The notes beneath the pieces are model-generated. The model did no database searches. It saw only the letters and a list, made by a program, of their open reading frames with translations, and was not told the origin of the DNA. 64,000 bases of DNA. Origin: Croceitalea dokdonensis DOKDO 023. Its GTDB lineage: Bacteria; Bacteroidota; Bacteroidia; Flavobacteriales; Flavobacteriaceae. The stretch covers positions 496,001-560,000 of the forward strand of contig NZ_LDJX01000001.1 of NCBI RefSeq assembly GCF_001306415.1. The letters are read 5' to 3'. The translations under genes were made by a program, and so were the position numbers. Positions 11,436-56,440 of the stretch are shown in pieces. Position 1 is the stretch's first letter. Each line of letters begins with the position of its first letter.

Positions 11436-12626
11436 CTACCAAGCTAACACTTTAAGAATACTTTTGACCCCAAGAAAAAACGTAAATCCCACAATAAGAC
11501 AGCCTAGTACATTCTGCCATTTGGAATTCCTGTAGTTACCCATGACCTTCACCCTATTCACGGCCCAAAGCAAAATAACCGCAATTACGGGCAAAAGGAT
11601 ACCATTGGCAATTTGGGCAAATTTGATGATTTCAATAGGTTTTACATTAAAGGAAAGGGATAGTACCCCAGCAGCCAGAATACCAATCCATACTGCCCTA
11701 AAACGCCAATCTTTTAAAGTGGATGGCCATCCAAAACAGTTTCTTGCCACATAAGCCCCAGCCAAGGGAGCGGTAATACTAGAGGTTACGCCGGCGGCCA
11801 GTAGTCCTACCCCCATAAAATATTTGGCCCATTTTCCGTAAAGGGGCTCCAGTCCGGAAATTAAATCCATGACACCGGCAACCGATTGTGAGGGTATGGC
11901 AGAAGCGGCAACGATGATAGCCATGGATACCAGGCCACCAAGACCAATGGCCAAAATAGTATCCCATTTTGCGGTTTTTAAATCTTCTGTGCTTTTCCAA
12001 CGTTCGTTCACCAAGGACGCATGTAAGAATAAATTATAGGGGACAACCGTGGTTCCCACCAATGCAATAACGTTTAAAAGGCTATTTTCTGGAAAGCTTG
12101 GCACTAACAATCCCCTAAGCAAGACCGCTATATCTGGCTTGGTGACCAAAGCGGTAATCATAAAAGAAAGGCTCATTAAACAAATGAGCCCTAAAAAGAC
12201 CTTTTGCAGTAGTTTATAATTACCATACCATAGCAAGACAAATACAGCCATACCAATAATAAGCGGATACAAGGATTCCCAGCTAGTGGATACAATGGCT
12301 TGTAACCCTAAGGTGGCACCGCCTATGTTTCCGCCTTCATAGGCTGCGTTTCCTACGAGGATGGCCGCCAAAACCACGCTAAGCACAAAAAACCGGAGGG
12401 TTTTATGGTGCAACTGTTCCTTCAACACCTCTGTAAGGCCCTTTTTGGAAACCAGTCCCAAACGTGATGCCATTTCTTGAAGCACTATGGTAGCAAATAC
12501 GGAAAATGCCAGGGCCCAAAGCAGGGCATAATTGAAATTTACCCCGGCAATGGTGCAAGCCGTAATGGTCCCTGGGCCTATGAACGCGGCGGCGATTAAA
12601 ACTCCTGGGCCTATTTTTTTAAACAT
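11436..12626 (-). CDS. NRAMP-fold transporter of the 5-oxoprolinase operon (metal ligands absent)
   Basis: An inner-membrane protein of about 396 residues with roughly eleven hydrophobic segments and the NRAMP/Mn(2+) transporter layout, similar to Bacillus YcsG, which also lies beside pxp genes. The first helix reads FIGPGTITACTIAG where metal-transporting NRAMPs have DPGN, and the sixth reads GTTVVPYNLFLHASLV where they have (A)xMPHN. So the Asp, Asn and Met that bind divalent metal are missing. I infer import of something else, most simply 5-oxoproline. Start chosen at ATG 12626 (MFKKIGPG); an ATG at 12644 is also possible. Confidence 0.8.
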   Translation of the reverse strand: MFKKIGPGVLIAAAFIGPGTITACTIAGVNFNYALLWALAFSVFATIVLQEMASRLGLVSKKGLTEVLKEQLHHKTLRFFVLSVVLAAILVGNAAYEGGNIGGATLGLQAIVSTSWESLYPLIIGMAVFVLLWYGNYKLLQKVFLGLICLMSLSFMITALVTKPDIAVLLRGLLVPSFPENSLLNVIALVGTTVVPYNLFLHASLVNERWKSTEDLKTAKWDTILAIGLGGLVSMAIIVAASAIPSQSVAGVMDLISGLEPLYGKWAKYFMGVGLLAAGVTSSITAPLAGAYVARNCFGWPSTLKDWRFRAVWIGILAAGVLSLSFNVKPIEIIKFAQIANGILLPVIAVILLWAVNRVKVMGNYRNSKWQNVLGCLIVGFTFFLGVKSILKVLAW

Positions 12627-12803
12627 GCTTAAAATTTTCACCACACAAAATAAAGGTTTCGCAACAAGGCACGTTGCATTTTATCTAAAAAAATGCATTT
12701 CGTCTAAAAACAGGGTGTCATACATCGAACGGCTATACGAATTAAAAAATGTGGAGGTTATAATAGTCCCAAATTAACAATTTTACCAAACTGACCTACT
12801 TAC

Positions 12804-13247
12804 ATGGCATGTATCGATTGTAACAAGAAAATAGGCTATGAACAAGCTACACATTCTAAGGAGATTTTAGGTGTTGAATTATGCGAGCGGCATACCCGGA
12901 TCATTAAAAAAGTAATATTAGAGCATAATACGGCTGTAGAAACCATCCAACTCTACTATGCCCTAAAGCAAGCAGGCGCCAACCCCATGTTAGAGTGGTG
13001 GGATGGTTCTAAATCTGTGGATATCGCAATTTCTAGAGTAAAGCTGAATATAGAAATTGATATGGGCCATGAATTGATTACCCACGAACAGGCCATACAG
13101 GATTTAGAGGAAGCGATGCATTCTTTTAAAAATGGGTTCACCACCATTAAGATTCCACATCTGGTAGTGAAGTACTACCTAAACGATACGGTAACCAACA
13201 TCCTTGGTATCATTCAGGGACTTAAGGCAAATCTCAAGGTTATATAA
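12804..13247 (+). CDS. hypothetical protein with zinc-ribbon-like N-terminus and possible nuclease-like fold
   Basis: A 147-residue protein I cannot name with certainty. Residues 3-30 hold CxxC (Cys3, Cys6) and C..H (Cys27, His30), a plausible zinc site. The second half has the order Glu64, Asp73 (SVDIAIS), Glu84-x-Asp86 (LNIEID), a helix with HEQAIQDLEEAMHSF, then GFTTIKIPHLVV. This resembles the core strand-helix-strand order of DUF559/Vsr-type PD-(D/E)XK endonucleases. It stands alone, divergent from the 5-oxoprolinase operon, with 177 bases between. The nuclease idea is inference from spacing and hydrophobicity only. Confidence 0.6.
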   Translation: MACIDCNKKIGYEQATHSKEILGVELCERHTRIIKKVILEHNTAVETIQLYYALKQAGANPMLEWWDGSKSVDIAISRVKLNIEIDMGHELITHEQAIQDLEEAMHSFKNGFTTIKIPHLVVKYYLNDTVTNILGIIQGLKANLKVI

Positions 13248-13674
13248 ACCGTTGGCTAGGGCTGGTGATACGCATACTAGATTAGTCACACCATCCCTTA
13301 GATGTAAACTATGGTTTAAGCTTAGAATAGGTACCTTACCTAGGCGAAGGATTACCATCTAACCAAGGGCTGATTCTTCACAAATCTGTGCAATCCAATG
13401 CCCAAGCGCAAACGGGGATTGTGGAAAAGGAAGGCCAGGAACACCTCCTTGCCATGGAAATACGCTATCATCAGATCATCAAGCCAGTCTGGTTAAGTGG
13501 ATGAGCCCCTAGAGGGTTTACCTTGCAATAATTCAGGTTAAGGCCAATCACATGCTTTTTAATAAAAACAATCCACGCTCTAGTTGGGTATGGTTGATTT
13601 CCTACCTAGTACCTATGGATTTTATAGCATAATCTTAGGATTTAATTGTATTTTATGCCTTTAAATTTATTAGT
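13248..13674. other. gene-free stretch, possible gene remnant
   Basis: About 430 bases with no complete gene. One plus-strand frame, about 13369-13504, reads LILHKSVQSNAQAQTGIV...LLAMEIRYHQIIKPVWLSG and then stops; its composition is protein-like but it has no start and I recognise no family. It may be the tail of a decayed gene. The final 60 bases are AT-rich and probably hold the promoter of the amidohydrolase gene. Confidence 0.35.
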
Positions 13675-15396
13675 ATGAAAATCCTTAAATTTTGGACATT
13701 GGCCATGCTTGGTGTCCTTTGTATTACGGCTTGCACCCAAACCCCAAAAGAAGCAGCAACGCTTTTGATTTATGGGGGGCCAATCTACACCATGGATACC
13801 ACCCAAGTGTTGGTTGAAGCCGTTGCGGTTAAGGACAACACCATCCTTTTTGCAGGTGGTTTAAAAGAGGCGGAAGCCTTTAAAACAGAAGAAACCGAAC
13901 TGTTGAATTTAAAGGGCAAAACCATGACTCCCGGTCTTATTGAAGGACACGGCCATTTTATGGGACTTGGCTACAATGAACTCAATTTGGATTTAATAGA
14001 AACCACCAGTTACCAAGAAATTATTGACGCTGTTGCAGAAAAGGTAAAGACCGTTAAGCCGGGCGAATGGATTTTAGGTAGGGGATGGCACCAAAGCAAA
14101 TGGACCAAAATGCCGGAAGAAACCGTAAATGGATTTCAGACGCATGAGTTGTTGAGCGCAGTATCCCCAGACAATCCTGTATATTTAGCCCATGCCAGTG
14201 GACACGCAGGATTTGCCAATGCCAAGGCCATGGAAATTGCAGGCCTTACTGTGGTGTCAAAGGAAGGCATAGATCAATTTAAAGTGGAAGGTGGCGAGGT
14301 AATGCGCGATGCTGCAGGCAACCCAACGGGAATTTTTAATGAAAGGGCCCAAACCCTAATTACAAAACATATTCCCGAAACCACCCCGGAGCGGGAGGCC
14401 AAAGCCTTTGAACTGGCCATTGAGGCATGCCATAGAAATGGTATCGTTGGTTTTCATGATGCCGGCATAGGAAGGGAAACCATTGCCCTTTATGACCAAA
14501 TGAAAACAGGGGGTAAAATGGATGTGCGTTTATACTGCATGCTTACCGGATGGGATAAAGAATTACTGACCGAATGGTACAAAAAAGGCCCCATGATAGA
14601 CCCAGACCACCGCTTTACCATACGATCGGTAAAACTTAACTGCGATGGTGCATTGGGCTCACGTGGCGCTTGGCTATTGGAAGAATATAGTGACAGACCT
14701 GGCCATTTTGGCCATGAAACCTTGCCCATGCCCTTTGTAAAGGAAACAGCTTTAAATGGTCTTAGAAACGGATTTCAGGTATGCTCCCATGCCATAGGGG
14801 ATCGGGCAAATAAAGAAATCCTGGATAGGTATGAATACGCTTTTAACCAACTTCCCGATCTTACCAAAGACCACCGTTTTAGGATAGAACATGCACAGCA
14901 CCTGCATCCGGATGATATTCCGCGCTTTGCCAGTTTGGGGGTTATCCCCGCTATGCAAGCGGTACACTTGTCATCGGACAGACCTTGGGCCATTGACCGT
15001 CTTGGGGAAAAACGCATTAAAGAAGGGGCATACATGTGGCAAACCTTATTAAAAAGTGGTGTGCCCATTGTCAATGGAACGGACGTACCCGTAGAGCCTT
15101 TAAACCCTATAGCAAGCCTATATGCAAGCTTTACCAGAAAAACGCTCAAAGGCCTTCCTGAAGAAGGATATGAACCAGAAGAACGAATGACACGGGAACA
15201 AGCTTTTAGGTCGTATACCTTAGATGCTGCCTACGGGGCTTTTGAAGAAAATATCAAAGGGTCCATAACCGCTGGAAAATTGGCAGATTTCACTATTTAT
15301 GACCAAGATGTAATGACCGTTGCGGAGGATAAGTTTTTGGATACACAGGTGATGATGACCATTTTCAACGGGGAAATTGTTTACCGCAAAGAATAG
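13675..15396 (+). CDS. amidohydrolase family lipoprotein (YtcJ-like)
   Basis: A 573-residue metal-dependent amidohydrolase of the YtcJ-like group (amidohydrolase_3). It begins with a lipoprotein signal, MKILKFWTLAMLGVLCITAC, with Cys20 as the probable lipidated residue, so it should be anchored in the envelope. The N-terminal metal motif HGHFMGLGY (HxH) follows GKTMTPGLIEGHGH; later metal and catalytic blocks are SHAIGDRANKEIL, RIEHAQHLHPDD and NGTDVPVEPLNP. The TIM barrel is closed by ITAGKLADFTIYD in the outer beta domain. Substrate cannot be told; family members act on amides, ureas or formylated amines. Confidence 0.88.
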   Translation: MKILKFWTLAMLGVLCITACTQTPKEAATLLIYGGPIYTMDTTQVLVEAVAVKDNTILFAGGLKEAEAFKTEETELLNLKGKTMTPGLIEGHGHFMGLGYNELNLDLIETTSYQEIIDAVAEKVKTVKPGEWILGRGWHQSKWTKMPEETVNGFQTHELLSAVSPDNPVYLAHASGHAGFANAKAMEIAGLTVVSKEGIDQFKVEGGEVMRDAAGNPTGIFNERAQTLITKHIPETTPEREAKAFELAIEACHRNGIVGFHDAGIGRETIALYDQMKTGGKMDVRLYCMLTGWDKELLTEWYKKGPMIDPDHRFTIRSVKLNCDGALGSRGAWLLEEYSDRPGHFGHETLPMPFVKETALNGLRNGFQVCSHAIGDRANKEILDRYEYAFNQLPDLTKDHRFRIEHAQHLHPDDIPRFASLGVIPAMQAVHLSSDRPWAIDRLGEKRIKEGAYMWQTLLKSGVPIVNGTDVPVEPLNPIASLYASFTRKTLKGLPEEGYEPEERMTREQAFRSYTLDAAYGAFEENIKGSITAGKLADFTIYDQDVMTVAEDKFLDTQVMMTIFNGEIVYRKE

Positions 15397-15496
15397 TTGG
15401 CCCAGAGGAATTATGATTAAAGAGTTGGTTGGAAAATTGGATGTATAGCAACAACAAAACGGTACAGCGTATACAGCGCGGCCTCCCCTATAAAAA

Positions 15497-16498
15497 TTGG
15501 ATTCACTCACACAAATAGTTCTAGGTGCCGCTGTTGGCGAAGCGGTACTGGGTAAGAGAGTAGGTAACAAAGCCCCACTATGGGGGGCCATTGCGGGCAC
15601 TATTCCAGATTTGGACGTGGTTACCAACTATATGGCGGATACCGTTACCGCCATAGAGGTGCATCGTGGTTTTAGCCATTCCCTTTTTTTTTCCATAGTA
15701 TTTGCACCACTACTTGGCTGGTTGGTCTGGAACCTTTATCACAAAAAACAGGCAACATGGCGGGATTGGTCTACGCTGTTCTTTTGGGGACTGTTTACCC
15801 ATCCCATACTAGATGCCTTTACCACCTGGGGCACTCAGTTATTTTGGCCATTGCAATGGCGATTGGCCTTTCAGTCCATATTTGTGATTGATCCTCTGTA
15901 CACCTTGCCATTTTTAATTTTTTTGATACTGGCAATTCGGCAATCCCAAATCTCCCAAAAAAGGCGAAAACTCAATCGTTTGGGAATCATCATCAGTTCT
16001 TGTTACCTGCTCGCCACCTTAGGTCTAAAAGCCCTGGCCCACCAAAAATTCATCACTGCCCTTCAACAGCAGGGAATTAGCTACAGCGAACTGGACACAA
16101 GGCCGGCGCCTATGAACACCATTCTTTGGATGGCTAATATTGACACTAAAGACGCCTATTTGATTGGGGAATACTCCTTTTTTGACAGTCAGGAAATTAC
16201 GTTTAGGACTATTCCCAAAAACCACGAATTATTGGAAGGTCTCCAACAGGAAGATAAGGTAAAGCGCTTGATAAAGATTACCCAAGGGTGGTATGCCATC
16301 CATGAAAAAGACGGGCAATTGTTTTTTAATGACTTAAGATTTGGTTTGTTAAGCTTGAATCCCAAAGAAACCCAATTCGCTTTTTCGTACCAACTACAAC
16401 CAACCAAAAATGGGCTTCAAGTACATGAAGTGCCCAAATTACGATCAGATGGCAAAAAGCTCCTAAGTGCGCTATGGGAACGGATTTGGGGTAATTGA
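15497..16498 (+). CDS. membrane-bound metal-dependent hydrolase, YdjM/LexA-binding family
   Basis: A 333-residue integral membrane protein of the YdjM (DUF457) family. The conserved start MDSLTQIVLGAAVGEAVLGKR and the motifs GTIPDLDVV, HRGFSHSLFF and THPILDAFTTWGTQL supply the His and Asp residues thought to bind metal; several hydrophobic helices follow. The codon that gives the family-typical N-terminus is TTG at 15497, and no ATG is placed suitably, so this is an unusual start. Function in the cell is unknown. It lies 100 bases after the amidohydrolase gene in the same direction. Confidence 0.82.
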   Translation: MDSLTQIVLGAAVGEAVLGKRVGNKAPLWGAIAGTIPDLDVVTNYMADTVTAIEVHRGFSHSLFFSIVFAPLLGWLVWNLYHKKQATWRDWSTLFFWGLFTHPILDAFTTWGTQLFWPLQWRLAFQSIFVIDPLYTLPFLIFLILAIRQSQISQKRRKLNRLGIIISSCYLLATLGLKALAHQKFITALQQQGISYSELDTRPAPMNTILWMANIDTKDAYLIGEYSFFDSQEITFRTIPKNHELLEGLQQEDKVKRLIKITQGWYAIHEKDGQLFFNDLRFGLLSLNPKETQFAFSYQLQPTKNGLQVHEVPKLRSDGKKLLSALWERIWGN

Positions 16499-16721
16499 TG
16501 CGTGTTCTAGTGTTATCAAAATTGATTTAAAACCATGCTATTTGTCAATGACATAATTGGTTGCCAACGGGGGTTATGGCGCTTGTAGCAATGGTCAAAA
16601 GCTGCAAACTGGCGCGTGCAAAGCCATTTAAAAAAAATGAAAGCTACCACCTATTTTAAACGACGGTTAAACACCAAAAAAAATGAATAAATAATAATAC
16701 CTTTAAACCAAAACACCGCAG
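16499..16721. other. intergenic region; possible degenerate third copy of the 17.2/20.5-kb repeat
   Basis: No gene is seen. A segment at about 16601-16621 (AGCTGCAAACTGGCGCGTGCA) resembles AGTTGCAAATTGGCGGGCATG in the repeat at 20485-20593, at roughly 15 of 20 positions. This may be an eroded copy of the same dispersed element, but the match is short. Confidence 0.3.
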
Positions 16722-17150
16722 ATGGCAGCACAGAATTTTAAAAATCATACCAAACTAGTTCTAGGATTTCATGGAATCTTATTTGTGGCGATACTCGCCT
16801 TATTGATTGGGTCCATTGTCAACCTTATGTATACGAGTCAAAGGAACCTTTATAGTGCGTCATTACTGGTACTCATCGCCTTTGTTTTCTTGATGATGGC
16901 GTGGTTTGTCCGCAGCTTTCCTTTAAAGGCACAAGACAGGGCCATCAAAGCGGAGGAAAATTTGCGGTATTACACCATGACTGGCAAGCTATTTCCTATG
17001 GAATTAAAAATGGCACAAATCATAGCGCTACGTTTTGCGAGTGATGAAGAATTTTTGCCCTTAGTGGAGCAAGCGTTAAAAGAAGACTTATCCAATAAAG
17101 AAATAAAAAGGCTGATAAAAAATTGGAGGCCAGATGTTTATAGGGTTTAA
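16722..17150 (+). CDS. DUF6526 family membrane protein
   Basis: A 142-residue protein with two adjacent transmembrane segments in its first half (LVLGFHGILFVAILALLIGSIV and SASLLVLIAFVFLMMAWFV, roughly residues 12-34 and 47-66) and a charged cytoplasmic tail. The tail motifs QDRAIKAEENLRYY, LFPMELKMAQIIALRFASDEEF and IKRLIKNWRPDVYRV are those of DUF6526, found widely in Bacteroidota. No function is known. It stands alone and immediately precedes the repeat-bounded accessory cassette. Confidence 0.8.
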   Translation: MAAQNFKNHTKLVLGFHGILFVAILALLIGSIVNLMYTSQRNLYSASLLVLIAFVFLMMAWFVRSFPLKAQDRAIKAEENLRYYTMTGKLFPMELKMAQIIALRFASDEEFLPLVEQALKEDLSNKEIKRLIKNWRPDVYRV

Positions 17151-17223
17151 ATGGTACTCATCAAGGATACAATCCGCCGCGCTTTTAAATTTCGAAAGTG
17201 TGGCTTTTTAATGTATAGGGTAG

Positions 17224-17333
17224 TTGACTTATAATGATCACCAGTTGCTAATTCGCGCGAATAGGGCATACATTGTAAAAGGTTGTTGATGCAGACTTAC
17301 TCATGAATGCACGAGCGTGACGCTCGCGTTAGT
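17224..17333. repeat. imperfect direct repeat, left copy, with palindromic core
   Basis: This ~110-base segment is repeated in the same orientation at 20485-20593. Shared blocks in order are TTGACTT, CACCAGTTGC, AAAAGGTTGTT, ATGCAGA, and a long final block CTGAATGCACGAGCGTGACG (left copy with A for C at its second base), continuing CTCGCG. The last block contains the perfect palindrome CGAGCGT-G-ACGCTCG (17313-17327). Together the two copies bracket the HEPN-like pseudogene and the GHKL-nuclease gene. Confidence 0.8.
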
Positions 17334-17457
17334 GGGGGAATACCTTATTTCTACATGAAGAAACTTGAACACATTTTACTGAAAGAACTTAAATATTGTT
17401 CTACCTCCCATATCCTTTCAACTCTTATAAACTGTGTCTGCATCAGGCATCTAATTT

Positions 17458-18072
17458 TTACGAGAACTCTTCGTGATAATAATACGCTGTCAAATCCTCA
17501 AGCTTCTCATAAATTTCAGTAAGTATTGTATTTAAATTTTCTAAATCGACCTCAATGTTATCCCATTGTTTTGCATAAAAATGTTGCTCTTAATCATTTG
17601 AAATTGGATATCTAGAAAAGTCTATTTTGTTTTGGTCTGGATTCTCTTGAATTACCTCCTAAAGTTCCTCGATATTCTTTTTAAGTTCTGTAGTAACAGT
17701 ATCAAAATGTTTTACTCCATTTGCCCCATGGAAGAGTTTAATTTTAGCTCTAGCATTTTCGTAAATCTGTTTGATATTGTGCTTGCCCTCTACTTTATTT
17801 GGTTTATCAAGAAGCCTATTGATTTTCTAAATCAGGGCTTTCAAGTACAGCTCTATTCCATGATTAACGTTATGGAAGATTGGGAAAATTAATTTATCTG
17901 CTTCTTTCCATTTGTTATTATCTAAGCACCTTTTAGTTAATTCTATTCCAGAACTTAAATAACCATCAGCCAATACAAGCATATTGCTAATATCATCCCC
18001 ACCGTCCGTCCTCCAATTAACAAAGGATATTTTTTCAATAATTTGGTCATGCCTACTGAAAACCTTTTTCAT
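17458..18072 (-). pseudogene. HEPN-like protein gene with three in-frame stops
   Basis: A single minus-strand frame of 205 codons runs from ATG 18072 to the TAA at 17458 and reads as protein throughout, but is broken by TAG at 17827, a second TAG after KKNIEEL and a TAA after YPISND. No frameshift is needed. The intact first piece (81 residues) ends VNHGIELYLKALI, the pattern of HEPN-type helices, and the later pieces continue with HNIKQIYENARAKIKLFHG and DFSRYP. I infer an inactivated HEPN-like gene, perhaps a toxin or abortive-infection component. It is divergent from the GHKL-nuclease gene with 116 bases between, inside the repeat-bounded cassette. Confidence 0.7.
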
Positions 18073-18188
18073 AGATGCTCAAAGTTATATCTATATTTTA
18101 TAATCAACACATATAGCTTGCTATTTGATTTTATATCTCGGATATTTGATTAACAATCGTATTCCTAAGTTAAACACCTTATTTAAAA

Positions 18189-20345
18189 ATGAAATATGAA
18201 GACAATACTTATGTAACGAGGGATGGTGTTTACTACGAAGGGATAATCAGAGAAATAAAGCGCTCAAGAAATACTTTCCAACCAATTTATGAGGCCTTTA
18301 CAAATGCCTTGGAAGCAATTAAAATCAGGGAGAAGGAAAATAACGGCTTTAATGGTAAAATTCTAATCAAAATACATTCTACTCAAAACACGGATGGCAG
18401 TCTTACATTTTCAAAAATGCATATCACGGATAATGGAATAGGCTTTAATGATGAAGAATTTGATAGATTTAATACATATAAAGATTTTACAAAAGGCTTT
18501 AAAAACCTAGGTTCGGGAAGAATACAGTATACCCATTTTTTCGACACTACAAGGATAAAAAGTATCTACGAAAGTAATGGAGGCTATCGTGAAAGAGAAT
18601 TTGTAGTGTCCAAAAACAAAAATTTTCTTCAGCATAAATCAATTGTGTTTCATAAAAAAGATGTTGAAATTGAGGCGGAGGCTTCTAGCACCACATTGAC
18701 ATTTGAAGGCTTGCTAGATTCAAATTTGGCTAGTTACCATAACTTAAATGATGAAATTTTAAAAGATGCTTTACTACGAAGGTATATCCAATACTTTTGC
18801 TTGAACAAAAAGGAATTGCCGGAAATAACGATTGAACACTATGCTTTCAATGAACGAGAAAACATTTCGAAAATTACTGAATCAGATATACCCGAAATTG
18901 ACAAATCCGAAGATTTCCAAATACATTATTCAAAAGTTTCGCCTGATGCTAGTAAAGTTGAAAGTGCAGATGAATTTGAAACCTTTACGCTTAATTCCTA
19001 TAAGCTTGACAAGTCATTTTTAAAACATAACGATTTAAAGCTTACAAGCAAGAATGAAGTAGTCCAACAATTCGACATTAATTTGGTTTCGCTTGCCAAA
19101 AATGATGTTATCGAAGGTAGTCATTTCTTATTCTTGGTGTCCAGTGATTACTTAGACAACAAAGACACTAATGAGAGAGGTGAGTTCCACATCCCACGAT
19201 TCGATGAATTCCAAGACCAATTAAACATGTTTTCTGATAGGGAAATTATTCTTGATGATTTGGAATACAAATTAGGTGAAACTGTATGGAGTCTGTACCC
19301 AGAAATAGAGAAAATTCAAGAGAAGCATCTTACCGACTTAAATAAGCTTAAAGAAATGTTCCTTTTACCTGATGACTTTGATTCAGATATAGATATTTCG
19401 ATAAATGATAGTAGCAAAAAAATTCTTGAAAAATTCTATACCGTAGAAGCAAAGAAAAAAGCTGAATTAGATTCTAATATTAAAGACAGTATGGATAGGC
19501 TTAATCATTTGGACACAACATCTGATGATTACTCCGCCTTACTAAATGAAGAAATTGACAGAATCGTTCGAGTAATACCTCAACAAAACAGGGTTGAACT
19601 TACCCATTATGTGGCCCGAAGAAAGCTCGTTCTAGACCTTTTTTCATTGATTTTAAATAAAAAGTTGATAGTTCAAAATGATGGCTCAAGAAATAACAAT
19701 GAAGAACTGTTACACAATCTAATTTTTGAACAAAAATCGACTATAACTAATAAAAGTGATTTATGGATTATCAATGAAGATTTCATCTACTTTCAAGGTG
19801 TATCAGAATTTCAATTGTCAGATATAAAATACAAAGGCAAAAACATCATACGTGAGGATTTATCAGATAAAGAAAGCGAGTACATTACTTCGCTGGGACA
19901 AAAACGCCTAGACAAAAGACCTGACATACTCTTATTCCCGAAAGAGGAAAAATGTATTATAATAGAGTTTAAAAGCTTAGATACAAATGTGTCCGATCAC
20001 CTAAATCAAATAAATCATTATGCTACGCTTTTAAGGAATTTTTCCATACCCGAAATGAAACTGACAACTTTTTACGGCTATTTGATTGGAGAACAAATAG
20101 AGCCACATGATGTAAGATCGCACGATGCTGACTTTATACCATCTTATGAGTTCGATTATTTATTTAGACCTGCAAAAAAAATAGCTGGGATGTTCAATAA
20201 TGAAGGAAAAGATGGTTCTTTATATACGGAGGTTTTAAAGTATTCTACACTTCTTGAACGAGCAAAAAATCGTAATGAAATTTTTATAAAAAAATTGACA
20301 GGCGAGAATACAGAAGAAGCAGAAGATGATGAAACTCTATTTTAA
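18189..20345 (+). CDS. GHKL-type ATPase fused to PD-(D/E)XK nuclease, putative defence protein
   Basis: A 718-residue soluble protein. The N-terminal GHKL (Bergerat) ATPase has the N box with Glu35 and Asn39 (YEAFTNALEAIK), DNGIGF (Asp81-Phe86) and a glycine lid NLGSGRIQ (~107-113). A long middle region with likely coiled coil (~375-460) follows. The C-terminal part has DLWIINEDFIYFQG and then a nuclease core with Asp579 (RPDILLF), Glu593-x-Lys595 (IIIEFKS) and a helix with Gln607. ATP-gated DNA or RNA cleavage is inferred; the MORC/Hsp90-like-plus-nuclease layout is frequent in bacterial defence loci. The gene is visibly AT-richer than its neighbours and lies between direct repeats, which points to horizontal gain. 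I cannot match it to a named system. Confidence 0.8.
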   Translation: MKYEDNTYVTRDGVYYEGIIREIKRSRNTFQPIYEAFTNALEAIKIREKENNGFNGKILIKIHSTQNTDGSLTFSKMHITDNGIGFNDEEFDRFNTYKDFTKGFKNLGSGRIQYTHFFDTTRIKSIYESNGGYREREFVVSKNKNFLQHKSIVFHKKDVEIEAEASSTTLTFEGLLDSNLASYHNLNDEILKDALLRRYIQYFCLNKKELPEITIEHYAFNERENISKITESDIPEIDKSEDFQIHYSKVSPDASKVESADEFETFTLNSYKLDKSFLKHNDLKLTSKNEVVQQFDINLVSLAKNDVIEGSHFLFLVSSDYLDNKDTNERGEFHIPRFDEFQDQLNMFSDREIILDDLEYKLGETVWSLYPEIEKIQEKHLTDLNKLKEMFLLPDDFDSDIDISINDSSKKILEKFYTVEAKKKAELDSNIKDSMDRLNHLDTTSDDYSALLNEEIDRIVRVIPQQNRVELTHYVARRKLVLDLFSLILNKKLIVQNDGSRNNNEELLHNLIFEQKSTITNKSDLWIINEDFIYFQGVSEFQLSDIKYKGKNIIREDLSDKESEYITSLGQKRLDKRPDILLFPKEEKCIIIEFKSLDTNVSDHLNQINHYATLLRNFSIPEMKLTTFYGYLIGEQIEPHDVRSHDADFIPSYEFDYLFRPAKKIAGMFNNEGKDGSLYTEVLKYSTLLERAKNRNEIFIKKLTGENTEEAEDDETLF

Positions 20346-20637
20346 TTACTTTTTAATCTCATCCATAAATGGGTTTTGCTTCTGTCTAAGTGGCATAAGT
20401 TCATAATACCGAGTGCAATTGAACCCATAACGAGGCAGCCTAAACTAGGGTGCGTTTAAATTGTACTAATCAATTATTTAATAATTGACTTGTCACGGCC
20501 ACCAGTTGCAAATTGGCGGGCATGGGAATAAGGTGGAAAAGGTTGTTAATGCAGAGTTACGCCTGAATGCACGAGCGTGACGCTCGCGCTAGCAGGGACG
20601 TGTCAATTGAGCCAACTAAGGGCTTATGTGTTATTCA
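20346..20637. other. intergenic region containing the right-hand repeat
   Basis: No gene is seen between the convergent GHKL-nuclease and comM genes. The stretch contains a 17-base perfect palindrome (CAATTATT-T-AATAATTG, 20471-20487) leading into the right copy of the direct repeat. No good Rho-independent terminator was recognised for the GHKL gene. Confidence 0.6.
20485..20593. repeat. imperfect direct repeat, right copy, with palindromic core
   Basis: Partner of the repeat at 17224-17333, same orientation and almost equal length (109 against 110 bases). Differences are scattered substitutions in the middle; the 3' block with the palindrome CGAGCGT-G-ACGCTCG (20573-20587) is nearly identical. 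It is preceded by an AT palindrome that the left copy lacks. The copy lies 44 bases from the comM stop. Confidence 0.8.
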
Positions 20638-22173
20638 TTATCCCAACCATCCTTCCCTGTCCAAACTTCGGTATTGAATGGCTTCTGAAATATGATTGCC
20701 ATCAACTGCTTCACTCTGTGCCAAATCTGCAATGGTTCTGGCCACTTTTAGGATTCGGTCATAGGCGCGGGCAGAAAGGTTAAGGCGTTCCATGGCATTT
20801 TTGAGCAAGAGTTTTGAGGCCTCGTCCAATTTACAGTACTGCCGTATTTGTTTGGTATTCATTTGGGCGTTGTAATGCACGTTTTCCAGTGCTGTAAATC
20901 GTTTGGTCTGTATGTCTCGCGCTGCGGTCACCCGTTGTCTGATGGCCACACTGCCCTCCCCTTTCCTATCATCCGATAGTTTTTCAAACGGAACAGGGGT
21001 CACTTCTATATGGATGTCTATCCGGTCTAACAAGGGACCGGAAATCTTACTAAGGTACCGTTGCATCTCTGCCGGTGAGGAGGTCACAGGGGCATCCGGA
21101 TCATTAAAATACCCACCGGGACTTGGATTCATACTGGCCACCAACATAAAACTGCTTGGATAGGTGACCGTAAACCGTGCACGGGAAATGGTGACCTCCC
21201 GATCCTCCAAAGGCTGGCGCATGACCTCTAAAACACCTCGTTTAAATTCTGGCAACTCGTCCAGAAACAACACCCCGTTATGGGACAAGGAAATTTCACC
21301 GGGCTGGGGATAGGCTCCCCCGCCCACGAGCGCTACATCAGAAATGGTGTGGTGTGGACTCCTAAAAGGGCGTTGGTTCATTAATCCCATATTTTTTACC
21401 TTGCCCACCACACTATGTATTTTGGTAGTCTCCAAAGCTTCATGCAAGGTCATGGGTGGCAAAATGGAAGGCAAACGTTTGGCCAGCATGGTTTTACCGG
21501 AACCTGGCGGACCAATTAAAATGATATTATGGCCACCGGCTGCTGCAATTTCCATACAGCGTTTGATGCTCTCCTGTCCTTTGACATCGGCAAAATCGAA
21601 CTCCGGGAAATCCAAGGTTTTATAGAATTCCGCACGGGTGTCAATAATCGTTGGTTCCAAAGGCTTATCGGCATCAAAATAATCGATGACCTCTTTGATA
21701 TTTTCTACCCCATACACGTCTAGCCCGTTTACGATGGCTGCTTCTTTGGCATTGTCCTTTGGCAAAATAAACCCCTTAAAACCTTCCTCTTTGGCTTTTA
21801 TGGCAATGGGAAGTGCGCCTTTTATGGGTTGCACGCTACCATCCAAGGAAAGCTCGCCCATAATCAGGTACTTTTCTATGTGTTCCGATTTAATTTGGTT
21901 GGAGGCAGAAAGGATACCCAAGGCCAGCGTCAGGTCATAAGCGGAACCCTCTTTTCGTAAATCCGCAGGGGCCATGTTTATGGTAATCTTCTTTCCTGGA
22001 ATCTTATACCCATTGTTCTGCAGGGCGGCAGCAATGCGGTAATTACTTTCTTTTATGGCGTTGTCGGGCAAACCAACCAAATGGTAGCCAATGCCTTTGT
22101 CTATGTTCACCTCTACCACAACAGTGGTGGCCTCTACCCCAAATACGGCACTGCCAAATACTTTTATCAGCAT
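20638..22173 (-). CDS. comM: YifB/ComM family Mg-chelatase-like AAA+ ATPase
   Basis: A 511-residue AAA+ ATPase. Order of domains: Lon-protease-like N-terminal domain (to ~170), Mg-chelatase ATPase with Walker [16 protein letters not shown] (~residue 215) and Walker B region [11 protein letters not shown], and the C-terminal ChlI-type domain with [21 protein letters not shown]. In naturally competent bacteria ComM is a helicase that promotes branch migration during chromosomal transformation; whether this organism is competent is not known. Length is standard. It is 45 bases from the end of the surface-protein operon on the same strand. Confidence 0.93.
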
Positions 22174-24012: not shown

Positions 24013-24022
24013 TGTTCTTAAT

Positions 24023-25240
24023 TTATTCTGTCCAAAAATCAGGGACCATATTACTGCCCAGTACGGTGCAATCCCCACAAGCACGGCGTCCCGTTAAATA
24101 GGGACCTGCCGGTGGCGCTACTTGGCCGTTATTATTGCCGGCGTATACAAAAAGTCCACTTTCAACAGCATCCCGTAAGGGCGACCCACCCCCTTCGTTA
24201 ATGGTTTCGGGAGCTCCAAAAAAATTGCAATTTAAAATATACGGTGGCAATGGCTCATTGGGGAAAAAGTCTTGGTAATTAAAGAATAGGCGTTCCGTAC
24301 TACTATGGGCAACTTCAAAATAGCCCAAAACTTTTTCGTCAGGGTCTTCAGGATTTGTAATATTCCCGGAAATAAAGCCGGGTTGTACCTCTGTAAAAAT
24401 ACTCTCGTTCCCCGCTTGTTCGTTCAGGGCGCGGTAAAAAGCGTGTGCATCTGGGGTCTGGCCAAGTTGGGTGACCAAAATGCTATAGCGATGTGAGATG
24501 ATAAAATCATCCCTAGGAATAAACCGAATTAAATTCCGCTTCAACAACGCTCCAGATATCGTAAGGTTGGTAGGTTTAATGATTCGGTCAGAGGCCACGG
24601 TATTGTAACAAACCCGTTCTTCTTGCTCCCGTGGGGCCAGATCAAATGTAGGCAAAAACGGGTCTGTATTGGTGATGACGATATCAAAAGGCTGCCATAA
24701 CGGGGCAATGATTTTGTACGTCTCCTCATAGGTATACCGTAAAAAGGGGGGCTGATTAGGTAGAATTTCTGCATCCACATAGATGGCAATGCCCTCCACA
24801 CCTTGGGCATTTTCTACGCGTTGCGCGTAGAGATCTGCGATGCCACCAGAAGTAGGGGGTGTTACGGTTTCTGATTGGTAGAATGTTCCATCTTGGGTTT
24901 GTATTTGTAATTGATATGTAGTGTTTGGCAATACCGCAAAAGGTTCGGTAGCGATGTACCTGCCGGGCTCCGCTTCTACAAATACAAGGTTGTTCCCATT
25001 GCCATCCAGTATCCTGACATTGGCATTCCGTTCTGCGGGCTGGACGGTATCATTGGCAAAACTCCTGCCACGCCCCAGCAGTACCTCATGCTGTTTTTGT
25101 TCGTTCGTCAAGCTGGCCTCCACGACCAATATAGCATTGATATCCCCGGTCTGCAGCACCTCTTGGCCCAATTCAAACGGTTCTACGCAACCCAAAAGGC
25201 CAAACCAACAAAACATATAAAATAGGCTCTTTTTATTCAT
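24023..25240 (-). CDS. DUF4249 family lipoprotein (copy 4 of 4 in the operon)
   Basis: A ~405-residue lipoprotein of unknown function. From the ATG at 25240 it begins MNKKSLFYMFCWFGLLGC, with the lipidated Cys18. Shared family blocks are AILVVEASLTNE, VRILDGNGNNLVFVEAEPGRY, RYTYEETYKIIAPLWQPF, ERVCY, SHRYSILVTQ, RLFFNYQDFFPNEPLPPY and the C-terminal CGDCTVLGSN..PDFWTE. The ATG overlaps the stop of the preceding copy by 4 bases (ATGA), so the frame upstream to 25252 is not used. DUF4249 genes generally lie beside TonB receptors, which suggests an outer-membrane binding or accessory role. Confidence 0.85.
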   Translation of the reverse strand: MNKKSLFYMFCWFGLLGCVEPFELGQEVLQTGDINAILVVEASLTNEQKQHEVLLGRGRSFANDTVQPAERNANVRILDGNGNNLVFVEAEPGRYIATEPFAVLPNTTYQLQIQTQDGTFYQSETVTPPTSGGIADLYAQRVENAQGVEGIAIYVDAEILPNQPPFLRYTYEETYKIIAPLWQPFDIVITNTDPFLPTFDLAPREQEERVCYNTVASDRIIKPTNLTISGALLKRNLIRFIPRDDFIISHRYSILVTQLGQTPDAHAFYRALNEQAGNESIFTEVQPGFISGNITNPEDPDEKVLGYFEVAHSSTERLFFNYQDFFPNEPLPPYILNCNFFGAPETINEGGGSPLRDAVESGLFVYAGNNNGQVAPPAGPYLTGRRACGDCTVLGSNMVPDFWTE

Positions 25241-26595
25241 TCCTCTATCCAAAAATCTGGTACAACATTAGTTCCTACAACGTTACAATCCCCGCAAATG
25301 GTGGGTGTTACGATGTATGGTCCTTCACATTCACCAGGTTCATTACTGCTTACATACTCCAACAAACCTAGCTTTACCCCTGGCAACAAGGCAGGACAAC
25401 TGGCATTTGGCGGAATTGGACCGTCCCGCTCTGGATTACCTAAAATAGGCGCTAAAATACGGTCACACCTAACAGTCCCAAAATAAGGCGGTAGCGGTTC
25501 ATCCGGATAAAAGTCCACATAGTTAAAATACAGCCGCCTTTCCGTGGCATGGCTCACATCAAAAAAACCGATGACCGGTTGGTCTCCCGCTATATTAAAG
25601 ACATTGCCTTCCAACGGTCCAGGCTGTACCTGGCTAAAGACCAGCTCACTTTGATTGAAGTTCCTCAAATTTTCATAAAACTGAAAAGCTTCAAAAGAAA
25701 TGGCCATTTGTTTCACCAGAATGCTGTACCTGTGGGAAATGATAGGGTTGTCACTTTTTATAAATCGCAGCTGATTTTTAATGACGGGACCCCCGTTCAA
25801 TGTGGTTCCATCAAACAATAGAATGTCTTGTGAGGCATCGGTCTTAAAACAGACCCTTTCTTCCCTTGCCCTTGGCACTAACCTCACGTCTGGATATAAA
25901 ATATCTATCACATCACCGTTTGCATCGACCATCAACTCTTGGTTTTCCCTGATGATCTCAAACTCAAAGGGTGTCCAGTTTGGCGCGATGATTTTGTAGG
26001 TCTCCTCAAAGGTGTATCTGTAATAGGCTGCCTCGCCTAAAGCGGAATCCATGGAGCTATCCACAAAAATACCAACACCTGCCGCACCGCTGCCGGCAAT
26101 GGTAGGTTCTGCATAAAGGCTATCTATGCTTGAAGTCCCTGCCATACGCATTTCGTTGGAGCGGTAGCGGTCCCCATTGGACGTGCTTACCGAAAGGGTG
26201 TAACCAACGTCAAAAGTGGGCCGAAAGTCCGCAGGCGACACGTAAATTCCTGGTTCACTTTCCATGAACACAAATTCCGGACCGCCATTGGTGCTTACGC
26301 GTACCGAGGCATTTTCCTCTGGCAATACGTCTAGCCCTTTGGGCGATATAAACGGGGAGTTTGGATTAAAGAGCACTTGTTCTGGCACGTTTACCGTACT
26401 ATCACTTTCCACCTGTCTGGACCTACTGAGCAGGACCCTTTGTGGTTCACCGTTATCGGTAAGGTTGGCCTCTACCACCAAAATACCCTGACCATCTTGG
26501 GATACTGCCGACAAAGGCACCACCGAAATTTCCTCAACGCAGCTTGTCAGGCAGATGCAGAGTGTTAACAGTGATATGTGTATGGGTTTTCTCAT
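25237..26595 (-). CDS. DUF4249 family lipoprotein (copy 3 of 4)
   Basis: The largest of the four copies, about 452 residues. From ATG 26595 it begins MRKPIHISLLTLCICLTSC (lipid Cys19). It repeats the family blocks with variation (GILVVEANLTDN, RYTFEETYKIIAPNWTPF, ERVCF, SHRYSILVKQ, SQVQPGPLEGNVF, RLYFNYVDFYPDEPLPPY) and ends CGDCNVVGTNVVPDFWIEE. An insertion relative to the other copies lies after the first strand (VLFNPNSPFISPKGLDV). Its ATG overlaps the stop of copy 2 by 4 bases; the open frame further upstream (to 26643) lies inside copy 2 and is not used. Confidence 0.87.
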   Translation of the reverse strand: MRKPIHISLLTLCICLTSCVEEISVVPLSAVSQDGQGILVVEANLTDNGEPQRVLLSRSRQVESDSTVNVPEQVLFNPNSPFISPKGLDVLPEENASVRVSTNGGPEFVFMESEPGIYVSPADFRPTFDVGYTLSVSTSNGDRYRSNEMRMAGTSSIDSLYAEPTIAGSGAAGVGIFVDSSMDSALGEAAYYRYTFEETYKIIAPNWTPFEFEIIRENQELMVDANGDVIDILYPDVRLVPRAREERVCFKTDASQDILLFDGTTLNGGPVIKNQLRFIKSDNPIISHRYSILVKQMAISFEAFQFYENLRNFNQSELVFSQVQPGPLEGNVFNIAGDQPVIGFFDVSHATERRLYFNYVDFYPDEPLPPYFGTVRCDRILAPILGNPERDGPIPPNASCPALLPGVKLGLLEYVSSNEPGECEGPYIVTPTICGDCNVVGTNVVPDFWIEE

Positions 26596-27875
26596 TCTTC
26601 TATCCAAAATTCCGGTGGTTGGGTGCCCCCAAAAACAGTACAATCCACACAGCCCTTAGGTTTCACCAGAAATGGGGCCGCCCCTCCCAAACCCTCTGTT
26701 TGCAACCACTCTTCATAATCTTCATTTTCTGCATGATAGGCATACAAACCAGCCAAAATACCTTCTATCAAGGGGGAATTTCCATTGCCGTCCACTACAA
26801 AACCATCACCACTTGGGGCTGGTGTAATATGAAATCCCTCTGGGTACAAGGGAGGTAAACCCGTGCTGCAGTTAATCAAATATTCTGGTTTTTCCTCTCC
26901 CGGAAAAATATCATCATGATTAAAAAACAACCTTTTAACGCTTACCGAGCTCAATTCAAAATACCCAAATACTTGGGCTACGCTTGAATTTTGAACCCTA
27001 ATATTACCTTCTAAACGCCCGGTTTGCACATTACTGAACACACTTTCCACACTAGAAAAATCCTGCAAGGACCCAAAAAAGGAGGCTGCATTACCATCAT
27101 GGTGGTATTGCCTTACCAAAATACTATACCGATGGGAAAGGGCGTAATTGGTACTAGCTATAAAACGGACTTGAAAATCCTTTAAGGTATTGGTGGTAAG
27201 GCCTTCCGTTGAAGCTAAAACAATGGAATTGGAGCTGTTGTTTCCATAACAAATATGCACCAATCCATTCCGTGGGGCAACGGTCACCTCCCAACCATCC
27301 CCGTCATTAATGTCATAATCAATTTGATCCCAATCAAAAGGATTGGGGTCCGGAGCTATAATCCTATAGGTTTCCTCAAACTCGAATCTAAAGTAAGCTT
27401 GACCATCCAAAGGAACTTCAGTATCCACCAAGATGGCGACCCCATCGGTCTCAAAACCATTTAGACGACGCTCTGCACGAATGCCATTCATAGGTGCTTT
27501 TGGTGGCATTATGGTGGAATCCGAAAGATATTGTACCCCATCTTTGGTGATAATTTGCAATTGGTAGCTTTTGCCTGATTGTAAATCTAGCGGAACAACG
27601 GAGGTATAACGCCCATTTTCCTGTTCAGCAAATTCAATGGTTGCACCATCTGATGGCATCAGCTTTACAAGAGCCCCAGTTTCAGGTAGCGGACCTGAGT
27701 CGGACAAATTAAAGGTGCGTGTTAGAAAAATATCCTGTTCCATAGCGCCATCATGTAGCCTGGCGTCTACTACCAGCGCTCCGTCCAGCACGTCTACGAT
27801 ATCCACTGGGTCAAAGGCCTCCACACAACCAAAGAACCAAGAACAGCTTACGATATACAGAAATATTCTTTTCAT
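26592..27875 (-). CDS. DUF4249 family lipoprotein (copy 2 of 4)
   Basis: A 427-residue copy beginning MKRIFLYIVSCSWFFGC (lipid Cys17). It is the most divergent of the four: it keeps FRFEFEETYRIIAPDPNPF, SHRYSILVRQ, SNVQTGRLEGNIR, FGYFELSSVSVKRLFFNHDDIFPGEEKPEY and the end CVDCTVFGGTQPPEFWIEE, but has HICYGNN where the others have ERVCY. Start and stop overlap its neighbours by 4 bases each (ATGA), so translation is coupled along the array. Confidence 0.87.
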   Translation of the reverse strand: MKRIFLYIVSCSWFFGCVEAFDPVDIVDVLDGALVVDARLHDGAMEQDIFLTRTFNLSDSGPLPETGALVKLMPSDGATIEFAEQENGRYTSVVPLDLQSGKSYQLQIITKDGVQYLSDSTIMPPKAPMNGIRAERRLNGFETDGVAILVDTEVPLDGQAYFRFEFEETYRIIAPDPNPFDWDQIDYDINDGDGWEVTVAPRNGLVHICYGNNSSNSIVLASTEGLTTNTLKDFQVRFIASTNYALSHRYSILVRQYHHDGNAASFFGSLQDFSSVESVFSNVQTGRLEGNIRVQNSSVAQVFGYFELSSVSVKRLFFNHDDIFPGEEKPEYLINCSTGLPPLYPEGFHITPAPSGDGFVVDGNGNSPLIEGILAGLYAYHAENEDYEEWLQTEGLGGAAPFLVKPKGCVDCTVFGGTQPPEFWIEE

Positions 27876-29182
27876 TCTTCGGTCCAGAATTCAGGTTCAC
27901 TATTACTTCCTAGTTGCGTACAATCCCCGCAAACAGTGGGTACAAACGTAAAAGGACCAGGGCAGGCCCCAATGTTAGAGCCGTTGTTCCCTGTAAAACT
28001 GATTAATCCAAGATTTACCCTTTCAATAATAGACTGTGGGCAATTGTTCATGGAAAACCCCTGAAAGCAATAAGAAACATGTGACTCCGGTGCAGAGGTA
28101 GGGTTACAATTAAAGGGGAAGGGCGGCAAGGGCTCATTCGGATAAAAATCCGTATAGTTAAAAAACAATCGTTTCTTGGTGCTGGAAACCACATCAAAAA
28201 AACCTAAAACCGTACCACCAGTTCCCTCTTCCGAGAGGATGTTACCCTCTAAAAAGCCTGGTTGGACCTGGGAAAATATATTTCCGGTCTGGCTAAAGTT
28301 GTTGAGTTGCTCATAGAAACCAAAAGATGCTAAACCGGCAACCAATTGCTCCACTTCAATACTGTACCTGTGCGAAATGGCAAAATTATCCTTGGATATA
28401 AAACGGACCATAAATCTTTTGATTCCGCTCCCATTATCACCGGCCAATTGCGCCTGCACGATCCTATTTGAAACTTCTGTTCTATAACAAACACGTTCTT
28501 CCCGTGAGCGCTCCACAATGTCCAAATCATAGGTTGGGACGGGCAGCGCACATGGATCGTAATTGGTCAATTGAAACTGAAAAGGAGTCCAATTAGGCGC
28601 TATAATCTTATACGTTTCTTCATATTTGAACCTAAAATTTTCGGATACGCCCATCTCGCTAACATTGTCAATGAAAATTCCTATCCCTTCTTCCCCATCG
28701 TTATTAACTACCTTTTCCGCGTAAACGTTTTCTAAATTGGAGAATCCTTCTATTTGCATTGGTGTAGAAAAAAAACGTTGTCCGTTTGCGCGGATAACAC
28801 GTAATTGATAAGCTCTCCCTATTTCTGCGGCAAAGGGTTGGGCAGATTCATAAATTCCTGGCCCTATTTCATTAAAAGGGTAACGCAATCCTGCATCATC
28901 CTCTACCGTTACCTGTGCATTTTCCTCATAACGTACCAAATCCCTATCAATATCCCTAATTGGTGTAAAAGGATTGAACACGGAATCTATTTGGGTATCC
29001 AAAATAGTATCGATTTTAGAAAGCGTTATCCGCTGGTTCTTTAGTTCATTGGTGACCGTACCCTCAACAATTAAAATATTCTCAATATTGGTAACCACCT
29101 CGGTAATGCTAAGGTCTACCTCCTCCACGCAACTGCTTAGAAACAGTAGAAAACCAAAAACTAATCTATTTTTGCCAAACAT
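27872..29182 (-). CDS. DUF4249 family lipoprotein (copy 1 of 4)
   Basis: A 436-residue copy, first of the array, beginning MFGKNRLVFGFLLFLSSC (lipid Cys18). Blocks: NILIVEGTVTNE, VTVEDDAGLRYPFNEIGPGIY, RFKYEETYKIIAPNWTPF, ERVCY, SHRYSIEVEQ, SQVQPGFLEGNI, RLFFNYTDFYPNEPLPPF and CGDCTQLGSNSEPEFWTEE. It lies 170 bases downstream of the TonB receptor gene. That gap holds no gene that I can support; the array may be read from the receptor promoter or from a promoter within the gap. Confidence 0.87.
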   Translation of the reverse strand: MFGKNRLVFGFLLFLSSCVEEVDLSITEVVTNIENILIVEGTVTNELKNQRITLSKIDTILDTQIDSVFNPFTPIRDIDRDLVRYEENAQVTVEDDAGLRYPFNEIGPGIYESAQPFAAEIGRAYQLRVIRANGQRFFSTPMQIEGFSNLENVYAEKVVNNDGEEGIGIFIDNVSEMGVSENFRFKYEETYKIIAPNWTPFQFQLTNYDPCALPVPTYDLDIVERSREERVCYRTEVSNRIVQAQLAGDNGSGIKRFMVRFISKDNFAISHRYSIEVEQLVAGLASFGFYEQLNNFSQTGNIFSQVQPGFLEGNILSEEGTGGTVLGFFDVVSSTKKRLFFNYTDFYPNEPLPPFPFNCNPTSAPESHVSYCFQGFSMNNCPQSIIERVNLGLISFTGNNGSNIGACPGPFTFVPTVCGDCTQLGSNSEPEFWTEE

Positions 29183-56355: not shown

Positions 56356-56440
56356 GGAGGAATGGCAGAGTGGTCGAATGCGGCAGTCTTGAAAACTGTT
56401 GAGGGTCACACCTCCGGGGGTTCGAATCCCTCTTCCTCCG
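56356..56440 (+). tRNA. tRNA-Ser (anticodon UGA)
   Basis: An 85-base class II tRNA. The acceptor stem GGAGGAA pairs with TTCCTCC (56433-56439) and the discriminator is G; CCA is not encoded. The anticodon loop CTTGAAA gives anticodon TGA (reads UCA). A long variable arm (GTTGAGGGTCACACCTC region) and the T-loop GGTTCGAATCC confirm tRNA-Ser. Confidence 0.95.

Follow-up and report, generated by a model that had tools for sequence, protein, structure and literature searches.

Results

Organization of the locus

The locus lies within the 64,000-nucleotide stretch of Croceitalea dokdonensis DNA that was analysed (the window), and comprises a GHKL ATPase gene and a gene relic enclosed by two direct repeats, R1 and R2 (together, R), between a DUF6526 gene and the 3' end of comM. 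Genomes and loci used for comparison carry G and L numbers, respectively. The features are as follows.

12804–13247, forward strand: gene for a 147-aa protein, the far-side anchor of the variable interval, common to G002, G005, G006 and G007
16722–17150, forward strand: DUF6526 gene (E = 1e-52), the left neighbour
17221–17337, forward strand: R1, the left repeat, with a REP hairpin core at 17309–17328
17458–18072, reverse strand: relic gene of 204 codons, in a single frame with three internal stops
18189–20345, forward strand: gene for a 718-aa GHKL ATPase with a C-terminal PD-(D/E)XK-like nuclease motif (weak Pfam matches, Foldseek, invariant residues)
20482–20597, forward strand: R2, the right repeat, with a REP hairpin core at 20569–20588
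20638–22173, reverse strand: comM, whole (profile match), its 3' end toward R2; anchor of the proposed hotspot

Both repeats lie between convergent genes, R1 between the DUF6526 gene and the relic, and R2 between the GHKL gene and comM. The flanking genes had been described as core genes in a preliminary description made from the letters of the window; this holds for comM, found in all eight genus genomes (partly at contig ends), but not for the DUF6526 gene, which C. dokdonensis alone of the eight possesses. Elsewhere in the window, positions 24014–29182 contain a tandem run of four paralogues in which a 76-nt 3' end is repeated.

The repeat pair and its hairpin core

R1 and R2 are identical at 94 of 117 aligned columns (score 139, compared with a maximum of 37 across 1000 shuffles), and the differences are scattered over the whole length of the repeat; with an identity of about 80% and no identical stretch longer than about 25 bp, they are poor substrates for recombination today. 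The reported pair of imperfect direct repeats in the same orientation is thus real, with edges a few bases wider than the approximately 110 bp claimed. The term ‘palindromic’ suits the 20-bp hairpin core, which the two copies share with zero mismatches (0 expected in shuffled windows), but not R1 and R2 as wholes, which fold no better than shuffles (z = 0.03 and −1.10). Several identities for R were considered and rejected: a degenerate comM 3' end (similarity no better than shuffles on either strand), an RNA gene serving as an attachment site (three Rfam matches, all with E of at least 1) and a MITE (no consistent terminal inverted repeat visible by eye in R1). A supposed third copy at about 16575–16640 was also rejected, its similarity not being significant.

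It had been proposed that the block was exchanged through copies of a dispersed palindromic repeat, and that further copies be sought throughout the genome. The search speaks against this, because in the C. dokdonensis genome (3.88 Mb, 16 contigs) the full repeat is present at two places, both at this locus, and the hairpin core alone at a third; furthermore, R was found in none of the seven genus relatives (G001, G003 and G004 being without a contiguous interval), and the genome has no RAYT gene. Neither a single-R empty site nor other cargo between two copies of R, the arrangements predicted for such an exchange, was therefore seen among these relatives. At an E value of 0.001, R has matches in 31 of 299 family genomes, C. 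dokdonensis included, and those outside C. dokdonensis are to the hairpin end only (query positions from 78), except in G007 and G025, where a part of about 30 bp at positions 18–47 is matched. The sequence shared elsewhere amounts to about 29 bp, the core only, and the 87 bp to the left of the core are matched in one of 395 genomes of the order, that of C. dokdonensis itself.

RAYT homologues are encoded at eight of the 28 family REP loci examined, including L028, the locus of one of the queries. The hairpin of R is thus common to loci encoding RAYT, and its core is a family-wide REP belonging to a RAYT family. A search for RAYT/Y1_Tnp (PF01797) gave no match in the C. dokdonensis genome, compared with matches in five of 14 control genomes, and no RAYT match was found at 16500–20640 of the window. 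Next to the third core of the genome (L003, C9:567807) is a RAYT-like remnant of 26 C-terminal residues (E = 8e-4), which suggests that C. dokdonensis has lost a RAYT. Because only the core is shared with RAYT-linked loci, and the genome is without Y1_Tnp, REP transposition may account for the core, though not for the pair of 117-bp repeats.

The block between the repeats

The GC content is 31–35% between R1 and R2, compared with 36–40% in the DUF6526 gene and spacers, 44% in the genes at 12804–16498 and 48% in comM; the block is foreign, acquired DNA. The relic, described beforehand as a broken HEPN-like gene, is indeed broken, by three in-frame stops, but its translation, with X at the stops, has no Pfam or NCBIfam match that would make it HEPN-like. 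This gene, next to the GHKL gene, has decayed since entry. No recombinase gene was found in the block, and it was correctly described as containing neither integrase nor tRNA, the sole tRNA of the window being at 56356.

The description of an AT-rich GHKL-nuclease gene between the repeats also stands. The 718-aa protein matches HATPase_c (E = 7e-4) and HSDR_N (E = 5e-4), both weakly and under the curated cut-offs; its predicted structure, of low confidence (mean pLDDT 60), resembles PDB structures of GHKL ATPases (best Foldseek E = 3e-8); and Asp579 and the Glu593-x-Lys595 motif are invariant across nine aligned relatives. Among the catalogued anti-phage defence proteins of PADLOC, PDC-S41 is the best match, a weak one that spans 47 residues (E = 0.007).

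Relatives of the GHKL gene at 70–72% identity were found in six Bacteroidota (Winogradskyella, Mesonia, a Bacteroidia MAG, Arcticiflavibacter, Echinicola and Neptunitalea), and two further relatives at 45–46%. Winogradskyella and Echinicola have a 3.58-kb block in common at 95% identity, and a hairpin-capable repeat of about 100–130 bp is present at the Winogradskyella, Mesonia, Arcticiflavibacter and Echinicola loci (L131, L132, L134 and L135); among these four sequences, a small number, five of the 27 predicted pairs of the hairpin are changed on both sides. Cassette-like ends also recur, as judged by eye, GTTACCTGCAAGC being present exactly in three of six 5' flanks and GCAGGTAAC in three of six 3' flanks. 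From their sequences, the repeats around these relatives look attC-like, and the GHKL relatives are possibly members of integron-like arrays in Bacteroidota; because of this likeness, the GHKL gene may be mobile elsewhere through a different mechanism. The suggestion that the cargo was acquired is in keeping with the mobility of its relatives in other places. The attC-like repeats (two queried) had no match in the window. Nor is R present at the loci of the GHKL relatives and, as it occurs only here, twice, it belongs to the locus rather than to the GHKL gene.

The interval in the genus

The genus sample consisted of eight genomes, two of them less than 90% complete, and the interval is contiguous in G000, G002, G005, G006 and G007. 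No two of these five intervals hold the same set of genes from the 147-aa anchor to comM, as expected from the suggestion that this is a place of gene turnover. In G005, G006 and G007, a single gene separates comM from a second comM 3' end of 36–38 codons (tblastn), which aligns over 111 bp in both G005 (98% identity) and G006 (97%), and over 62 bp in G007 (77%). In G006 this cargo gene encodes a 729-aa protein that matches TPR weakly, in G005 a 723-aa homologue of it, and in G007 a pentapeptide-repeat protein. The proposed comparison of the locus thus did reveal other cargo between two repeats, but the repeat there is the comM 3' end. In C. dokdonensis, a single comM C-terminus was found (search E up to 1), and no credible comM remnant at 12000–20630, the best tblastn match (E = 0.042) being on the opposite strand inside the GHKL gene.

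Truncated comM 3' ends across the family

Matches to the C-terminal 44 residues of ComM were obtained in 349 of 397 family genomes, 35 of which have them at two or more places. Four of the 35 were left out: G042, whose contigs overlap; G101, which has a second comM homologue of nearly full length; and, as not adjacent, G233 and G169, where the second copy is 447 kb distant and on a different contig, respectively. In the other 31 of the 349, a 5'-truncated comM 3' end lies downstream of comM, on the same strand; G006, from outside the family draw, likewise has one. The proximal copy is itself truncated in G025 and G310, and runs off the contig edge in G311. As controls, the first 44 ComM residues match in 350 genomes, at two places in five (G086, G089, G101, G129 and G274), and the C-terminal 44 of IlvD in 313, at two places in seven, the IlvD query being less conserved and hence less sensitive, and its places being counted without a check for being fragments. 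Fisher's test, computed with 33 of 347, gave p = 1.2e-6 against the comM 5' control and 6.4e-5 against IlvD.

When the comM of each of 29 genomes was aligned with its own downstream DNA, 32 of 40 rows stopped 0–7 nt from the stop codon, with at least one such row per genome; the other eight are internal or secondary pieces (G052, G136, G237, G244 twice, G382 and G383 twice). The fragment starts cluster at codons 273–278 and 474–476, each with a tightness equalled in one of 20000 uniform draws, a figure that serves as a guide because the 30 starts were picked by hand, one for each genus and cluster and partly from tblastn, and the range was set after the data had been seen. A further pile-up at codons 489–495 is not claimed as a site, because decayed fragments are perhaps detectable by their conserved tail alone. 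At codon ~475, G005, G006, G007 and G313 have a common arm; at codon ~275, G201 and G254 have one that differs from that of other genomes.

Arrays also occur, with three distal comM fragments each in G310 and G383. At L095, in G310, a long run of paralogous genes for proteins of about 240 aa, with similar starts, lies among RAYT, REP and three comM fragments; a look-alike of these genes at L098 is DUF6090. In G201 (L104, L122 and L105; C2:396700–444000), about 40 kb of genes that by eye resemble polysaccharide-use genes separate comM from a codon-273 fragment, beyond which lie a second cassette and a codon-475 fragment. Among 30 of the 86 cargo ORFs, searched against Pfam, neither a large serine recombinase nor a tyrosine integrase was found; the same 30 include two Y1_Tnp proteins, one truncated resolvase and 12 without a family.

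Split comM genes and large serine recombinases

In some relatives, comM itself is split: both halves are visible in G389, G097 and G162, the 5' half in G056 and G093, and the 3' half in G300 and G070. All five proteins tested from these genomes (G097, G162, G070, G056 and G389) are large serine recombinases, and the recombinases beside split comM, which belong to the relatives and not to the window, carry Resolvase, Recombinase and zinc-ribbon domains. The elements at L116 (G097), L117 (G162), L120 (G056) and L115 (G389) begin with the recombinase gene, and that at L121 (G093) with a look-alike. The split lies near codon 296 in G389 and near codons 275–285 in the others. Right junctions of split comM at codon ~275 (e.g. 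CCACATTATATACTATCACAGATGT in G162) resemble the junctions of duplicated fragments in six genomes (G136, G382, G310, G383, G195 and G244), and by this sequence resemblance the codon-275 fragments are most plausibly attachment scars left by large serine recombinase elements, comM having been kept or regained whole. A reading of the codon-275 junctions as Tn7 ends was dropped, as those of the serine recombinase elements matched. No intact element was found at codon 475; one lead, an apparently split comM in G042, was rejected as an artefact of two overlapping contigs.

Discussion

Origin of the block

The best reading of the window is that it exemplifies an acquisition hotspot at the 3' flank of comM, and we give a probability of roughly 45% to the explanation that its block entered this recurrent site by recombination of DNA carrying a diverged R. 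Mobile elements of the family and incoming DNA would add genes just downstream of comM, the agents being large serine recombinase elements near codon 275, with some agent acting near codon 475 as well. The comparisons show that comM is mostly whole, with a 5'-truncated comM 3' end marking the far edge of the insert; comM, we infer, either stays or becomes whole in the process. In the window, that edge is marked by R instead of a comM fragment, and most probably the GHKL gene and its neighbour, arriving with a diverged copy of the comM-flanking R, recombined at or beside the existing R to give R–cargo–R, after which the neighbour decayed. The confinement of low GC to the DNA between the repeats favours this explanation. 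Against it, R1 and R2 have diverged too far to recombine well today; as the window holds no comM fragment, its tie to the fragment-bearing inserts is one of position alone; and none of the genomes searched had an intermediate, whether a lone R or R accompanied by different cargo. A broader proposal, which we consider doubtful, makes the comM 3' end an integron-like landing site in Flavobacteriaceae, with the window cassette a variant at the same address: small recombinase-less cassettes would bring or leave a comM 3' end (codon ~275 or ~475 to the stop), and newcomers would enter beside comM to build arrays, so that a gene for recombining taken-up DNA would double as an address.

Other explanations separate the repeats from the arrival of the cargo. 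R1 and R2 might be relics of RAYT/REP units inserted separately beside comM, with the foreign block merely lying between them; the RAYT-linked core, the RAYT-like remnant beside the third REP of the genome, and the RAYT genes that immediately follow comM, or the 3' part of it, in G254 and G310 are in line with this, but the similarity of the pair spans 117 bp, far past the core shared elsewhere, and no RAYT was found in the genome or the locus, and we regard it as unlikely. A little less likely still is an old local duplication of intergenic sequence beside comM, between the copies of which foreign DNA came to lie by chance and by any route. Such an event would suit the 80% identity of the repeats, the position of each between convergent genes and their restriction to this locus, but the GC borders of the cargo coincide with both repeats, which chance would not demand. 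That R1 and R2 are the two halves of an attachment site, left by a site-specific element now without its recombinase, is improbable: direct repeats do surround the foreign DNA, and relatives have recombinase elements at this place, but the divergence of R1 and R2 is spread along the repeat, the block has no recombinase and R is absent from the other genomes searched.

Relation to known systems

The gene comM is the target of Tn6022/AbaR (Tn7-like, with TnsF) and Tsy transposons, which insert near the Walker B motif and split it (PMC10293859); we found no mention of Bacteroidota or Flavobacteria in the accessible portion of that paper. As far as that account goes, the family resembles these systems in the use of comM as an address, in the build-up of cargo and in the comM pieces beside inserts, but comM is whole beside most of the family inserts, which occupy its downstream side and have a truncated 3' copy at their far end, and the flavobacterial split genes carry large serine recombinases. 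In Acinetobacter, comM is often inactivated and its recovery by recombination is possible, but not above chance, according to the part of PMC11472951 available, and this counts against our preferred explanation. The Wolbachia WO prophages, in what could be consulted of PMC5447182, also have a serine recombinase beside a magnesium chelatase-related, comM-like gene, although there the element is a phage and the phylum another. Integron cassette arrays and CALINs, as far as described in the available text of PMC8618304, share with the GHKL relatives a setting among attC-like hairpin repeats, but the window has no attC-like site and R folds no better than shuffles.

The family pattern has further parallels among elements that stack. 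SCC elements are integrative elements that enter the 3' end of the conserved gene rlmH and stack there; similarly, the comM 3' end is duplicated to the stop codon and the inserts form arrays, but comM has several breakpoints and the 30 cargo proteins searched include neither type of integrating recombinase. With RAYT/REP elements, R has in common a REP core partnered with RAYT genes in the family, but the 117-bp repeat is not dispersed and its genome is without RAYT. No comM islands in Flavobacteriaceae or Bacteroidota were present among the literature matches listed, which cover open-access text in part. The targeting of comM is already known; the family pattern is set apart by the downstream inserts with a truncated 3' copy beside a whole comM.

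Mobile elements and natural transformation are known to be in conflict over comM in Acinetobacter. If the reading given here is true, the trail of comM 3' ends in Flavobacteriaceae would extend this conflict to another phylum, one in which a whole comM would frequently be kept or regained while the cargo remains, and a second comM 3' end would provide a simple marker of acquired genes at one address.
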